A model generated the notes under the pieces. That model was not told where the DNA came from. It did no database searches and was given only the letters and a program-made list of their open reading frames with translations. A DNA stretch of 37,263 nt from a virus: positions 1 to 37,263 of IMG/VR virus record IMGVR_UViG_3300031746_000073. One strand, given 5' to 3'. The translations under genes were made by a program, and so were the position numbers. Each line of letters starts with the position of its first letter. Positions within the stretch are counted from its first letter, which is position 1. This document shows, in pieces, positions 28,746-33,522 of this stretch.

Positions 28746-30056
28746 ATGGAAATCGAAGAAACAAAATTCGCAACGGAAATCATCACGATACCCATCGCAG
28801 AAATCAAATCCAACCCTCGCCAGCCGCGGAGCCTCTTCGATGCTGCCGAGATGGCCAGCCTGGTGGAGTCGGTCAAGCAGTATGGCATCCTCCAGCCGCT
28901 GATGGTCACGATAGCGGATGGTGGAATATATGTTCTAATCGCGGGAGAAAGGCGCCTGCGGGCGGCCAGGGAAGCAGGCCTGGAAGAAGTGCCGGCGGTG
29001 ATCTGCCCGGAGGCCTCCGAACGGGAGATGCTCGAGCTGGCGCTGATCGAGAACGTGCAGCGCACCGACCTGAACCCGCTGGAGAAGGCGCGTGCATACC
29101 AGCAGCTCATCGATGAATTCAGACTGACGCATGACGATATAGCCGGGCGGGTTGGCCAGCACCGCAGCACGGTAAGCAACACCCTGCGCCTGCTCAAGTT
29201 GCCGGATGGTATCCAGAAATCCCTGCTCAGCGGCTCGATCAGCGAGCGCCAGGCTGCGGCCTTGCTGGCGCTGTACGACCTGCCCCTACCGCTGCGCAAG
29301 CGCGCGGAGGAATACAACTACGATCCCAGCCTGAAACCTTCGAACGTCGAGGAGAAAGTCAGTCACGGGGCATCCTCCGATTACGTGCGGGACACCATCA
29401 GCCGCATGCTGCTGGCATTTGGAAAGCGGTTGATCTGGAACCCTAACACTGCCTTCGCCGTGCCACCGGAAATGCCCTCCTTATGTGCGGATTGCGGGAT
29501 GCTGATCTACCGCAGCGGTGATAACCTGTGCGGGGAGGAGTTGTGTTTCCAGGTGCGCCTGAACGCCTACAACCGCCAGCGCCTGCCGCTGCCGGAGCCG
29601 ACCCCCACACCGGCGCCGGCGCCCGCTCCACGAGTAAATGTGGAGATCAAGCATTTTAATACTGCTCCTTCAGAGCCGGAAGAAGAAGATATTGAGCCAG
29701 ACACGGAGATCCCCCCAACCAGGCCGGTCATGGGATACAGCACGGTCACCGAGCCGGAACCGGAATCTACGCCCATAGAGGCGCAAGATATGGCGGCTCC
29801 ACCTGCCCCCGCTGCGCCGGTCACCCTGGTTACGGCGCCCCCTCCCGCTGCACCCGACTGGGAGCACGCCACCCTGCTGGTCACCATCACCTATATGCCA
29901 GCCGATGGCAATCCGGACGGCCGGAACGTGTGGGTGGGTTTGCGCGCCAACAACAGCGCCCCGGCGATTCGCATGTGCCGGGAGAAAGAAACGCTGCTGC
30001 CCGGCTACCTGGCCGGTCTGCTGCTCGACATGGAAACCAAATTCAAGGAGACCTGA
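28746..30056 (+). CDS. ParB-like protein of a PRTRC-type cassette
   Basis: The 436-residue protein has a ParB N-terminal CTP/DNA-clamp domain (residues about 12-110): NPRQPRS, GILQPLMV, AGERRLRAAR and ENVQRTDLNPLEKA, then a helix-turn-helix (LTHDDIAGRVGQHRSTVSNTLRLLKLP). A Cys cluster (CADCG, LCGEELC; about 252-273) may bind zinc. After a Pro/Ala-rich linker the last 65 residues form a separate small domain (LLVTITYMP, NVWVGLRAN) that resembles PRTRC protein E in pattern. No ParA is present. It stands first in the coupled run with the ubiquitin-like genes, as the cassette name implies. Confidence 0.9.
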   Translation: MEIEETKFATEIITIPIAEIKSNPRQPRSLFDAAEMASLVESVKQYGILQPLMVTIADGGIYVLIAGERRLRAAREAGLEEVPAVICPEASEREMLELALIENVQRTDLNPLEKARAYQQLIDEFRLTHDDIAGRVGQHRSTVSNTLRLLKLPDGIQKSLLSGSISERQAAALLALYDLPLPLRKRAEEYNYDPSLKPSNVEEKVSHGASSDYVRDTISRMLLAFGKRLIWNPNTAFAVPPEMPSLCADCGMLIYRSGDNLCGEELCFQVRLNAYNRQRLPLPEPTPTPAPAPAPRVNVEIKHFNTAPSEPEEEDIEPDTEIPPTRPVMGYSTVTEPEPESTPIEAQDMAAPPAPAAPVTLVTAPPPAAPDWEHATLLVTITYMPADGNPDGRNVWVGLRANNSAPAIRMCREKETLLPGYLAGLLLDMETKFKET

Positions 30057-30057
30057 A

Positions 30058-30483
30058 ATGTACACAGTCACCATCGAAGGGCAAAAGATTCCGTTACCTG
30101 ACGAGATCGGATCGGATGATGCCAAAGTGCGCCAGGCCCTGGCGCCATACTTCCCGGATGCAGCCAATGCGCTGATCACCCGCACAGTGAAAGACGGCGA
30201 GACCACCATCAACGTGGTCAAGAAAGCGGGCACCAAGGGTTTACATGCAGGCCTGCAGATGCTCCAGGCCTGCACAGGCGGCAAGAACCCGGCAGTGGCG
30301 CTGTATGAGGAGATCAAAGCCAATCCAGAGCCGCTCAGCCCCGAGCAGCTCCTGGTGATGGACAGCCGCATCGAGCAGGCTCTGGACGAGGGCAAGAAGC
30401 AGCGGGATGCCGTGGCGCATGCCGCCAAGCGGCTGATCCGAGCCCGCCCCCAGCCTGCGGAGGCGGTCGTACAGGGATTTTGA
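30058..30483 (+). CDS. Ubiquitin-like protein (PRTRC_C-like) with C-terminal extension
   Basis: The 141-residue product has a beta-grasp-like first part: YTVTIEGQKIPLPD, then a helix DAKVRQALAPYFPDAANA and a strand INVVKKAGTKG ending at Gly61. PRTRC protein C (Prok_Ub) of about 65-70 aa normally ends in this G-T-K-G. Here 80 more residues follow, mostly helical (EPLSPEQLLVMDSRIEQAL and AVAHAAKRLIRARP). If Gly61 is the conjugating residue, the extension must be cleaved, a natural task for the JAB protein encoded downstream. The ATG is 1 bp after the parB stop. Confidence 0.75.
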   Translation: MYTVTIEGQKIPLPDEIGSDDAKVRQALAPYFPDAANALITRTVKDGETTINVVKKAGTKGLHAGLQMLQACTGGKNPAVALYEEIKANPEPLSPEQLLVMDSRIEQALDEGKKQRDAVAHAAKRLIRARPQPAEAVVQGF

Positions 30484-31406
30484 TGAAACTCACATTCGAT
30501 CAGGTCAGGCAGGAGCTGGACGGCCTGCGCCAGGTCAGTTACGTAGAGGCCGAGTCGCTCCTCGAGCGCGCCCAGGCGACCACCACCCACGCCTCGCTGG
30601 TGGCTGCATACGCCCCCCAACACCTGGGGGAAATCCGCGGCGTGAGCCTGCTCGAAGAGCCTGGGACGGATATGAACCCCCTGGAAGAGATTGTCTATAA
30701 TGTGCTATCCAGCCTGTTCCCCTGTAACGTCGATTCGCTGTTTCAGGAAATTCTGGACGGCGAGGCTGTACCCGGCCTGATCATCGATCCCGTGTTCAAT
30801 TTCAGCAGTGAAGAATTCGGCGATATGGTCATGGATCCGGAGAATTTCGGCAGCAGCGAATTGAGCAGCCTGCTGATCTTCGTGCGCTACCTGGGTCTCG
30901 TTATCGATGCGCCCTATTTCGAGCTGGCTGCTAAGTATTTCGGCTGGCCGGTGGATGCCCCGGAATGCTGCACGACCGCGGAGAGTATCGATACGGTAGA
31001 TATGCCACGTTTCTATGCCCTGCTCCAGGAGCACAGCCTGGACGAATTCATGCTGCCTTTCCAATGCAGCGCTCAGGAAACCGGCAATATCTTCCTGGAC
31101 TGGACGCTGGATGAAGCCTATAACGAATACATCCCTTACAGCATGGCATCCATCCGCGATCTGGTCCATGAATGGGAGTCGGCGCGGCCGCGGGTCGAGC
31201 AGATGAAGGCTGCCGCAGGACGGTTCCAAAAGGACCGCTGGATCGCTTCCAGGATTATCGAGCTGTGGGATCGATGCATCCGCTACAAAGATGGGCGAGT
31301 GCCGCGCACCCTGGTCGAGATGTGGGGCATTGATGCGGATGGGGATGTCGAGGTGGTAGCGGATGAATTCTACGGACCGGTAGGCGTGGAGGAAGCCGAT
31401 GATTGA
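30483..31406 (+). CDS. Acidic protein of the cassette, possible PRTRC_F equivalent
   Basis: The 307-residue product is acidic and helical, with VSLLEEPGTDMNPLEEIVYNVL, repeated Phe/Ser/Glu segments (FNFSSEEFGDMV), CCTTAESIDTVDMPRFYALL and a more basic C-terminal part (GRFQKDRWIASRIIELWDRC). I cannot match a motif with certainty. Size and position between Ubl and E2 genes fit PRTRC protein F, a conserved part of such cassettes with unknown role. Start and previous stop share a base (TGATG). Confidence 0.55.
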   Translation: MKLTFDQVRQELDGLRQVSYVEAESLLERAQATTTHASLVAAYAPQHLGEIRGVSLLEEPGTDMNPLEEIVYNVLSSLFPCNVDSLFQEILDGEAVPGLIIDPVFNFSSEEFGDMVMDPENFGSSELSSLLIFVRYLGLVIDAPYFELAAKYFGWPVDAPECCTTAESIDTVDMPRFYALLQEHSLDEFMLPFQCSAQETGNIFLDWTLDEAYNEYIPYSMASIRDLVHEWESARPRVEQMKAAAGRFQKDRWIASRIIELWDRCIRYKDGRVPRTLVEMWGIDADGDVEVVADEFYGPVGVEEADD

Positions 31407-32064
31407 ATACATCCCCTCACCACAGTTCAAGGCTCTCGCATCGTTGTTCTTCCTGGACAACGGTCATTACCTTTTCCGCTTCCTGGAGAATGGGAAAGAA
31501 GCCTCCAAGTTTGTCACATCCGTGGACGTGGCTGCTGCCTTCAGCATGAAAGAGATCGACACCGGCTGGCTGCCGGCGGGGATCGTGCGCTGCGGCCAGA
31601 ATGCAGCCGGGCCGTGGTTCGTTTACTCCACGCCTCCCCAGAAGGTAAAGATATCGCTGGATGCAGGCATCCGGATGGTGGTCCCGGCGCCCCGCCTGGC
31701 GCTGATCGGCAGCGGGAACGCGTATCGCATGGCAGCCATGCGTGAGAAGCACTTCCGGGCTGAAGCGCTTATCTATCACGCCCCATTCCCCAACATTTAC
31801 CCGGACGGGCGTATCTGCTGGGGAACCAACACCCCGCCCGAGGCCCTGCCCGAGAATGCACGGAAGGCCTGGGAGCTGTTCTTCGAGTCGCCCTTCAACG
31901 CCGATTTGACCGGCAATAAATCGAAGCTGCACTCGAACGACGTGCGGGATATGCTGCGCGAGCTGGAGCGGCGCCAGGCCAGGAGCTATCCCGCCGATGA
32001 TTTGCTCTCGATGAATAATGATGTCGAGGGACTGTTGAGAAAAGCGATCGGAGGTAACGCATGA
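31399..32064 (+). CDS. E2-like protein (PRTRC protein B/Prok-E2_D)
   Basis: The 221-residue product carries the signature of prokaryotic E2 family D: LIYHAPFPNIYPDGRICWGTN, i.e. an H-A-P-F-P-N turn followed by a G-R-I-C-W-G element with Cys140 as candidate thioester-forming residue. The earlier part is beta-rich with IRMVVPAPRLALIG, as in PRTRC_B. It overlaps both neighbours by 8 and 4 nt. Function: accept the Ubl from the ThiF protein and pass it to a target. Not tested in any such phage as far as I know. Confidence 0.8.
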   Translation: MIEYIPSPQFKALASLFFLDNGHYLFRFLENGKEASKFVTSVDVAAAFSMKEIDTGWLPAGIVRCGQNAAGPWFVYSTPPQKVKISLDAGIRMVVPAPRLALIGSGNAYRMAAMREKHFRAEALIYHAPFPNIYPDGRICWGTNTPPEALPENARKAWELFFESPFNADLTGNKSKLHSNDVRDMLRELERRQARSYPADDLLSMNNDVEGLLRKAIGGNA

Positions 32065-32732
32065 TCGTCAGTCATATTTTCGCCAAAACAACAGAGCTGG
32101 GTCCGATCTCGGAAGGCGATTTATATCAATATGTAGTCGCAGCGAATGGGGTCTTTTTACGGGCAGAGCGGCCAGGCTTGAAAGCCATGATCTGGGTGGC
32201 ATCGACCAGCGCGCCGATCCGAGGCCTGGTCGTGTTGACCTCCTACGTGCATCTGACCGAGAACCGGGTACCTGTGCGCATCACGGCGCGCATGGTCGAG
32301 ATGGCATATCACATGCAGGGACGCGAGATCCTGTTCTACCTGGAGCCGGTCCCGGTGCGTTGGATCGAGGCCGATACCCATACCGCTATGGTCAGCAGCC
32401 GGCCTGAAAATCCATGGCGCTTGCGAGTGCCCGAGCAGATTGCAACACCCGCCAGCGTCAAGCCGGTCAATCCCGGCGACGGGGCGGAGGCGCTGATCGA
32501 GCTGCATTCTCACCATGGCATGGGAGCGTTTTTTTCCAGCATGGACTCCCGCGATGAGACCGGGTTTCGAATTTATGCAGTCCTTGGGAATCTGGATTCA
32601 ACGCCGATGATCAACGTAAGGGTAGGCATCTATGGCAACTTCTGCGGTATCCCGGCTGACATGGTTTTCGAGCTGCCGGTGGGCCTGGTGGATGCTTATA
32701 TCTTAGGGAGCACTTATGGCGATGACCGTTGA
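32061..32732 (+). CDS. JAB/JAMM metallopeptidase (PRTRC protein A)
   Basis: A 223-residue protein with a clear zinc motif, IELHSHHGMGAFFSSMDSRDE: His149 and His151, then Ser159 and Asp162 as in H-x-H-x(7)-S-x2-D. The expected catalytic Glu should lie in the N-terminal half. The C-terminal part (RIYAVLGNLD, MINVRVGIYG) follows the JAB fold. JAMM peptidases cut after the terminal Gly of ubiquitin-like proteins, so this is the candidate for maturing the extended Ubl and for removing it from targets. Confidence 0.87.
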   Translation: MIVSHIFAKTTELGPISEGDLYQYVVAANGVFLRAERPGLKAMIWVASTSAPIRGLVVLTSYVHLTENRVPVRITARMVEMAYHMQGREILFYLEPVPVRWIEADTHTAMVSSRPENPWRLRVPEQIATPASVKPVNPGDGAEALIELHSHHGMGAFFSSMDSRDETGFRIYAVLGNLDSTPMINVRVGIYGNFCGIPADMVFELPVGLVDAYILGSTYGDDR

Positions 32733-33522
32733 TCTATCCTACTCCCAGGCCTGCAAGCTGCTGCTGCCGTCCTATGAGTCGGTCAACCTGAGCCTGGTCG
32801 GCTGCGGAGGGACCGGGTCATGGCTGGCGCCGTCGGTGGTGCGCGTGGGGCGATTGCTGCATGAGAAATTCCGGAAGCAGGTGCTGATCCACTTTATCGA
32901 TCCGGACGATATCGAGCCCAAGAACGTTTACCGGCAGAACTTCTGTGACGCCGAGGTGGGACGGAACAAAGCCGTTTCCCTGGCTTACCGCTACGGCCTG
33001 GCCTGGGGCATGGAGATCATGGCCATCCCCAAGCCGTTCGAAAAGGGCATGTTTCCCAGGGATATGGAAATGAACATCCTGATCGGATGCGTGGACCGGG
33101 CCAGCGGCAGGCGAGAGTTAGCGCAATACATATCTCATGGACCACGTCGATGGTGGCTGGACTGCGGGAATTTCAAAGCTGCTGGGCAGGTGCTGCTGGG
33201 CAGCGGGGATCATTTCCGAGAATCGGGCGAGCTGCCCGGGTACTGCTCCTGGCTGCCCAGCCCGTCGAAACAGCATCCCGAGCTGCTCCAGGAAGAGCCA
33301 TGGATCCCGGAGAGCGAGGCAGACCTATCCTGCGCCGACCTGGCGATGCGTGACAGCCAGTCCCTGGCGATCAACCAACGCGTGGCGGCGGAGGCCAGCG
33401 ACTACCTGGTGCGCATGCTGCTGACCAGGGATTTACAGAAGATGGCAACCTACATCGACCTGGCCAGTGGATCGAGCCGGTCGGTGTATATCACCAGGGA
33501 GAATGTGAAAATTGGAGGATGA
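32716..33522 (+). CDS. ThiF/E1-like adenylating protein of the cassette
   Basis: A 268-residue E1-like protein. The nucleotide loop is VGCGGTGSWL (residues 29-37), followed by IDPDDIEPKNVYRQNF (Asp62, Asn70, Arg73, Gln74) and GRNKA (Lys85). Asp127 in CVDRAS is the Mg-ATP residue. LDCGN and, near 206, DLSCADLAMRDSQSLAIN match the PRTRC ThiF pattern with a possible catalytic Cys206. It would adenylate the exposed C terminus of the Ubl. Overlap with the JAB gene is 17 nt, so it is one operon. Confidence 0.9.
   Translation: MAMTVDLSYSQACKLLLPSYESVNLSLVGCGGTGSWLAPSVVRVGRLLHEKFRKQVLIHFIDPDDIEPKNVYRQNFCDAEVGRNKAVSLAYRYGLAWGMEIMAIPKPFEKGMFPRDMEMNILIGCVDRASGRRELAQYISHGPRRWWLDCGNFKAAGQVLLGSGDHFRESGELPGYCSWLPSPSKQHPELLQEEPWIPESEADLSCADLAMRDSQSLAINQRVAAEASDYLVRMLLTRDLQKMATYIDLASGSSRSVYITRENVKIGG

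Follow-up and report, generated by a model that had tools for sequence, protein, structure and literature searches.

In eukaryotic ubiquitin-ribosomal fusions, an unrelated small protein lies in frame after ubiquitin and is released after the terminal glycine. Precursors of ubiquitin-like proteins (Ubls) that are processed by JAMM proteases are known as well. The pro-ubiquitin of the archaeon Caldiarchaeum subterraneum has a 9-residue extension, for which cutting by a JAMM protease (Rpn11/JAMM) was demonstrated; before the cut, the protein is refractory to E1 (PMC5654768). In the bacterial BilABCD system, which comprises a Ubl, E1, E2 and JAB/JAMM peptidase, BilA is processed by BilC before conjugation (PMC11354881). 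The PRTRC system (TIGR03734-TIGR03738) corresponds to operon type 6d of Iyer et al. 2006, who predicted that the JAB protein of such operons processes and removes the Ubl (PMC1779556). PRTRC-type bacterial Ubl operons have thus been predicted since 2006; no experiments that treat them as ubiquitin systems came up in our full-text literature search.

We analyzed a viral DNA stretch of 37,263 nucleotides (IMG/VR record IMGVR_UViG_3300031746_000073, positions 1 to 37,263; the window), in which a Ubl gene of the PRTRC type continues past its glycine into a second small protein, here called T. The locus resembles operon type 6d in its gene order (ParB, (E), C, F, B, A, ThiF), in the C-terminal glycine of the Ubl and in its E2 of family D, JAB and E1-like ThiF. 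However, in the description of Iyer et al. the Ubl is small and stands alone, with neither a fused nor a separate T (PMC1779556), whereas the window lacks an E-position gene between ParB and the Ubl and the carrier is a tailed phage. Residues past the C-terminal glycine, a nearby JAMM gene, E1 and E2 are shared with the Caldiarchaeum system; there, the extension is a short propeptide, whereas here it is an 80-residue protein for which we infer a cut. The window operon has the same set of components as BilABCD, although BilA has two Ubl domains, its E1 differs in architecture and T is absent. As far as the searched literature shows, the Ubl-T family and its history of fused and split forms are new.

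The PRTRC-type operon of the window

The features discussed below are listed with position, strand and description.

28746..30056, + strand: ParB-like partition protein, 436 aa (PF02195, PF17762; TIGR03734 E 5.8e-25)
30058-30483, + strand: Ubl-T precursor gene, an uninterrupted reading frame (141 codons and stop)
30058..30240, + strand: Ubl domain of PRTRC C type, residues 1-61 (hhalign, AlphaFold, VIA-align)
30229..30240, + strand: GTKG codons, residues 58-61, with invariant G61; predicted cut after Gly61, between 30240 and 30241
30241..30480, + strand: T, 80-residue helical protein with an NPA motif and C-terminal Gly-Phe (family fused or separate in relatives; AlphaFold)
30475..30480, + strand: C-terminal Gly-Phe of T, kept in relatives
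30483..31406, + strand: largely helical F-position protein of 307 aa, located after Ubl/T and before E2, its place in canonical PRTRC operons
31399..32064, + strand: PRTRC B, E2-like, catalytic Cys140 (PF14460 E 3.7e-25; TIGR03737 E 9e-17)
32061..32732, + strand: PRTRC A, JAB/JAMM metalloprotease, E89/H149/H151/S159/D162 (TIGR03735 E 3e-15; PF14464 E 5e-5)
32716..33522, + strand: PRTRC ThiF, E1-like adenylating enzyme, Cys206 and GCGGTG loop (TIGR03736 E 5e-38; PF00899)

The ATG of the precursor gene is preceded by AAGGAG and lies 1 nt past the ParB stop, and its TGA shares bases with the ATG of the next gene (TGATG). The initial annotation had described a Ubl with an 80-residue helical tail after the GTKG glycine and a JAB gene in the same operon, and each of these points was borne out: the frame encodes 141 aa with GTKG at residues 58-61 and 80 residues following, tail helices were predicted at residues 65-71, 78-88 and 95-128, and PRTRC A at 32061-32732 has its JAMM residues intact. 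Annotated PRTRC plasmids, e.g., Robbsia p3, show the order ParB, E, C, F, B, A and ThiF; the window follows the PRTRC order (ParB, Ubl, F-position, B, A and ThiF) with a separate E absent. ParB, A, B and ThiF of the window all matched PRTRC models (E 3e-15 to 5e-38) with scores below the equivalog cut-offs, and the F-position protein gave no family match, its NCBIfam search being empty. Judged by sequence, the window cluster is a divergent branch of the PRTRC systems. The C-terminal ~68 residues of ParB (window 29850-30053) are similar to the C-terminal portion of the protein at the E position in another locus, L004 (E 2e-7, single comparison). A ParB-E fusion in the window is possible and would explain the missing separate E gene.

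Residues 1-61 matched the canonical tail-less PRTRC C in a profile-profile comparison (hhalign, Prob 96, E 3.5e-9), and G61 was aligned to the C-terminal Gly. The curated models TIGR03738 and PF14454 gave no match to the window protein at E 0.1; among 44 fused homologues, they matched five (best 4e-8) and three, respectively. AlphaFold predicted a beta-grasp arrangement of elements (E2-6 E9-13 H21-28 E39-45 E48-54) with pLDDT 89-96 over residues 1-50. In VIA-align, the best rows placed model residues 1-59 on ubiquitin 2-75 with Z 5.4 over 57 residues at 2.8 A, and rows for GB1 and protein L were tied. As this Z is middling, the identity as a PRTRC C Ubl rests on the profile match. Foldseek yielded no significant match of the precursor structure in the PDB.

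Terminase, portal, major head, tape measure and serine-integrase-like genes are located at window positions 1-23478, indicating that the operon sits in a tailed phage, which is probably temperate. No near relative of the window was found among phage records. The nearest relatives of its E1 include Anaerolineaceae and other Chloroflexota MAG contigs as well as viral contigs; therefore, the host is probably chloroflexotan. One identical 51,102-base contig occurred twice in our collection, once as a virus record (L003) and once inside a Desulforudis MAG (L017), and care is therefore called for when hosts are assigned to such elements from MAG bins.

Tail protein T and the join at Gly61

Relatives were gathered via the E1 gene; the window protein alone, used as the query against phage records and viral contigs, found nothing. 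Tailed homologues were present in 43 aligned loci at 19-59% identity across the whole protein, indicating that the tail is not a chance read-through. G61 was the sole invariant column in the 44 fused homologues, and K55, G58 and K60 were nearly invariant. Across 97 non-redundant tailed Ubls, P1 was Gly in all 97, P2 was Lys in 96 and P4 was Gly in 91, while P1' was variable (A, N, S, G, T, L and others). The Ubl-T join therewith looks like a cut site. In the AlphaFold model, G61 lies in a linker between two confident domains, and residues 61-70 had a mean pLDDT of 66, the lowest inside the model. The pTM of 0.48 beside a mean pLDDT of 88.9 suggests that the Ubl and T domains have no fixed arrangement. 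G61 is thus predicted to lie in a flexible linker; a Gly61 buried in a continuous fold, which the initial annotation had named as a result that would speak against its reading, was not seen.

The tail profile matched 92 loci, with T fused to the Ubl in 63 and present as a separate ORF in 29. Counted as non-redundant loci, T was fused in 49; in 23, it was encoded separately, immediately after the Ubl gene. Relative to the Ubl stop, the start of the separate gene ranges from 35 nt upstream to 5 nt downstream, often with ATGA. On the E1 tree, the state of T, fused or separate, switched at least nine times. In Pseudanabaena, the Ubl stops two variable residues past GTKG, and the T gene starts in an overlapping ATGA at all loci looked at; because this clade is nested among fused systems, the arrangement is a fission of a fused gene with both halves kept. 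T is therefore a conserved protein of its own, joined to the Ubl in some lineages and separate in others. In one locus of Pseudanabaena biceps (L065:3291-4834), the Ubl and the T gene are separated by ~1.3 kb that contains a transposase-like ORF, and the start of the T gene is broken; a second locus of this genome (L071) has an intact Ubl/T pair. A programmed -1 frameshift joining the Ubl and T in Pseudanabaena was considered and rejected: T is in the -1 frame, but there is no conserved slippery heptamer. Internal initiation of T at Met68 was dropped because Met68 is not conserved in the fused relatives.

Modeled alone, T formed three helices (AlphaFold, pLDDT 88.7, pTM 0.65). It matched no family in Pfam or NCBIfam, and Foldseek found no significant match for it among solved structures; VIA-align reached Z up to 4.8 on long helices, which is the level of common arrangements. 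The C-terminal end is the most conserved feature of T. Gly-Phe ends the protein in 45 of the 49 fused forms, and among the 23 separate T proteins the last residue is Phe in every case, preceded by Gly in 22. It is conceivable that the hydrophobic C-terminal end of T binds a partner in the way that SSB or clamp-binding tails do.

Co-occurrence of Ubl extensions with the JAB gene

Among the first-sample loci whose Ubl runs on for >20 residues beyond the Gly, 99 had a JAMM-type JAB and one lacked it (L001, a cut copy of the window); of those with 1-20 residues, 14 had JAB and none lacked it. Loci without any residue after the Gly were divided into 9 with and 17 without JAB; in these 17, a search of both strands found no JAMM motif in any ORF of the locus, and the ORFs for E2 and E1 are immediate neighbors. 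A second scan, which was seeded from JAB-less relatives and in which a few contigs repeat those of the first sample, gave 29 extended loci with JAB and 0 without, and 3 unextended loci with JAB and 35 without. Merging both into 161 non-redundant loci (E1 <95% identical), we counted 113 extended loci with JAB and 0 without, and 11 unextended loci with JAB and 37 without. In all 37 JAB-less systems, the Ubl terminates exactly at the Gly position. The comparison with homologues, which the initial annotation had suggested as a check, thus spoke for its reading: the tail is present in relatives, and none of the 113 extended homologues lacks JAB, against 37 of the 48 unextended ones. Its premise that PRTRC C normally ends at GTKG was right for many plasmid systems only, as extended forms are common (97 of the 161 loci have >20 residues past the Gly). 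Records of 131-137 aa annotated as 'PRTRC system protein C' exist in Xanthomonas and Dyella.

A naive Fisher test of the association gives P 6e-27, a value that is too strong because related loci are counted. On the E1 tree, JAB changed approximately three times and the extension 11 times, and independent-pair sign tests were not significant because JAB changed so rarely. On the JAB-less branches, 3.5 extension changes were expected at the rate of the JAB branches and 0 were seen (P ~0.05). The tree-corrected support is therefore modest, and with JAB lost or gained only approximately three times, comparison alone does not prove the link. The window itself has both the residues past the terminal Gly and the JAMM gene. 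The JAB active-site residues E89, H149, H151, S159 and D162 were present in 124 of 124 JAB proteins, and E2 C140 and E1 C206 were each present in 161 of 161, suggesting that the whole pathway is kept. As JAB also stands beside Ubls that already end at the Gly (11 non-redundant loci), its conserved role may be deconjugation.

The T position is occupied in tail-less systems as well. An ORF of 42-95 aa, often in ATGA overlap with the Ubl, was found there in 38 of the 40 tail-less systems examined, JAB-less phages included. Examples are L010:2371-2589 (Robbsia, unannotated), L256:1828-2052 and L251:1227-1442, with others in L145-L244; these ORFs are often unannotated or labeled 'hypothetical' (Sulfuricystis, Photobacterium). 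Phe is the last residue in 22 of the 38, and 19 of the 38 fit P.{0,4}[FILVMP]$, compared with 99 of 1296 background ORFs, the pattern having been picked after the data were seen. Homology between the small downstream proteins of the JAB-less systems and T was not found by hhalign (Prob 0.3); position and hydrophobic C-terminus agree. We regard a small protein at the T position as a lead toward a wider pattern across tail-less systems.

Proposed processing of the precursor, alternative explanations and other tails

From the comparative evidence above and the parallels with the archaeal pro-ubiquitin, BilA and the prediction of Iyer et al., we consider it probable that the Ubl-T precursor is cut after Gly61 by the operon JAB and that T then acts in trans. 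The gene would yield a two-protein precursor, in which the JAB metalloprotease would cleave the peptide bond after Gly61 and release a 61-residue Ubl with an ...AGTKG end. The E1-like ThiF would then adenylate and load the freed Ubl, and the E2-like PRTRC B would pass it to target lysines, from which the same JAB could also remove it. T (residues 62-141) would be freed as a small helical protein and a normal operon component that works in trans. We infer JAB as the protease, the need of the cut for activation, the conjugation itself and the role of T from these comparisons. Maturation by cleavage, with JAB as the candidate, was also the reading put forward in the initial annotation, and it is favored by the absence of extended homologues without JAB and by the 23 loci with a separate T.

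The initial annotation had offered, in addition, a permanent fusion with the Ubl as a fixed part; the Ubl would then never be conjugated and would work with T as one molecule. The Ubl-T fusion is indeed common and old, a 57-row clade being nearly all fused. However, the same tail is a gene of its own in the 23 loci, in many of which the Ubl ends at the Gly or 2 residues past it, and the linker is predicted to be flexible. Moreover, were the fusion permanent, the retention of GxKG at the junction and of the E1, E2 and JAB catalytic residues would be left unexplained, and we therefore regard a permanent fusion as improbable. SUMO and NEDD8 precursors are the model for another explanation, i.e., that JAB cuts after Gly61 and T is a functionless propeptide that keeps the Ubl inactive until the cut. 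Unrelated tails follow the same Ubl in several other lineages, as expected if any tail would do, and the archaeal propeptide sets a precedent (PMC5654768); nevertheless, the separate T keeps its motif and Gly-Phe end, yet cannot mask the Ubl in cis, making a disposable tail just as improbable. Least probable, in our view, is that the precursor is cut by another host or phage protease instead of the operon JAB: host genomes do carry further proteases, but all extensions that we observed came with a JAB gene in their cluster.

The initial annotation had likened such a precursor to ubiquitin-ribosomal fusions. Both join a Ubl to an unrelated small partner that in other cases is produced alone, as T is in the 23 loci, and release after the terminal Gly is predicted here as well. 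T differs in having no ribosomal match, the proposed protease is a JAMM of the same operon, and no descent is claimed for T. With slightly less than even confidence, we propose that the locus represents a viral and prokaryotic counterpart of these fusions: a Ubl-T family, repeatedly fused and split, in which JAMM release would provide modifier and T in equal amounts. T would then be an undescribed core component of PRTRC, and a small protein with a hydrophobic end would occupy the same place even in JAB-less systems. The fusion offers a direct and cheap assay of the predicted pathway, with precursor, JAB and zinc, followed by E1, and the natural fused, split and tandem forms reveal which parts are separable. 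Any reconstitution would have to include the small, mostly unannotated protein beside the Ubl. Tailed phages, probably of Chloroflexota-type hosts, carry a whole E1-E2-Ubl-JAB cluster.

Tandem Ubls also occur, and the GxKG motif is retained at every inner end. One locus has three Ubl copies (L014) and another two copies followed by T (L095). In the Bacillus phage vB_BauM_KLEB27-3, gp199 (L173:931-1638, - strand), annotated as a hypothetical protein, consists of four near-identical tandem Ubls of the PRTRC C type. Prok_Ub matched it in four stretches (E 5e-27); its copies are joined as KAGVKG|M, and it closes with the 7-residue end MPRIVVK. Like the window locus, gp199 has a PRTRC-C-type Ubl, GxKG at the joins and PRTRC_A-like JAB and ThiF genes downstream; in contrast, its tail consists of further Ubl copies and the short end, resembling polyubiquitin and not T. 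In Burkholderia-type viral contigs (L147, L151, L152, L155-L157, L165-L169 and L172), the tail is variable right after GTKG and has a constant C-terminal part (..CPLLDEEVAFINALHARYC..), such that a variable insert lies between two constant halves among close relatives.
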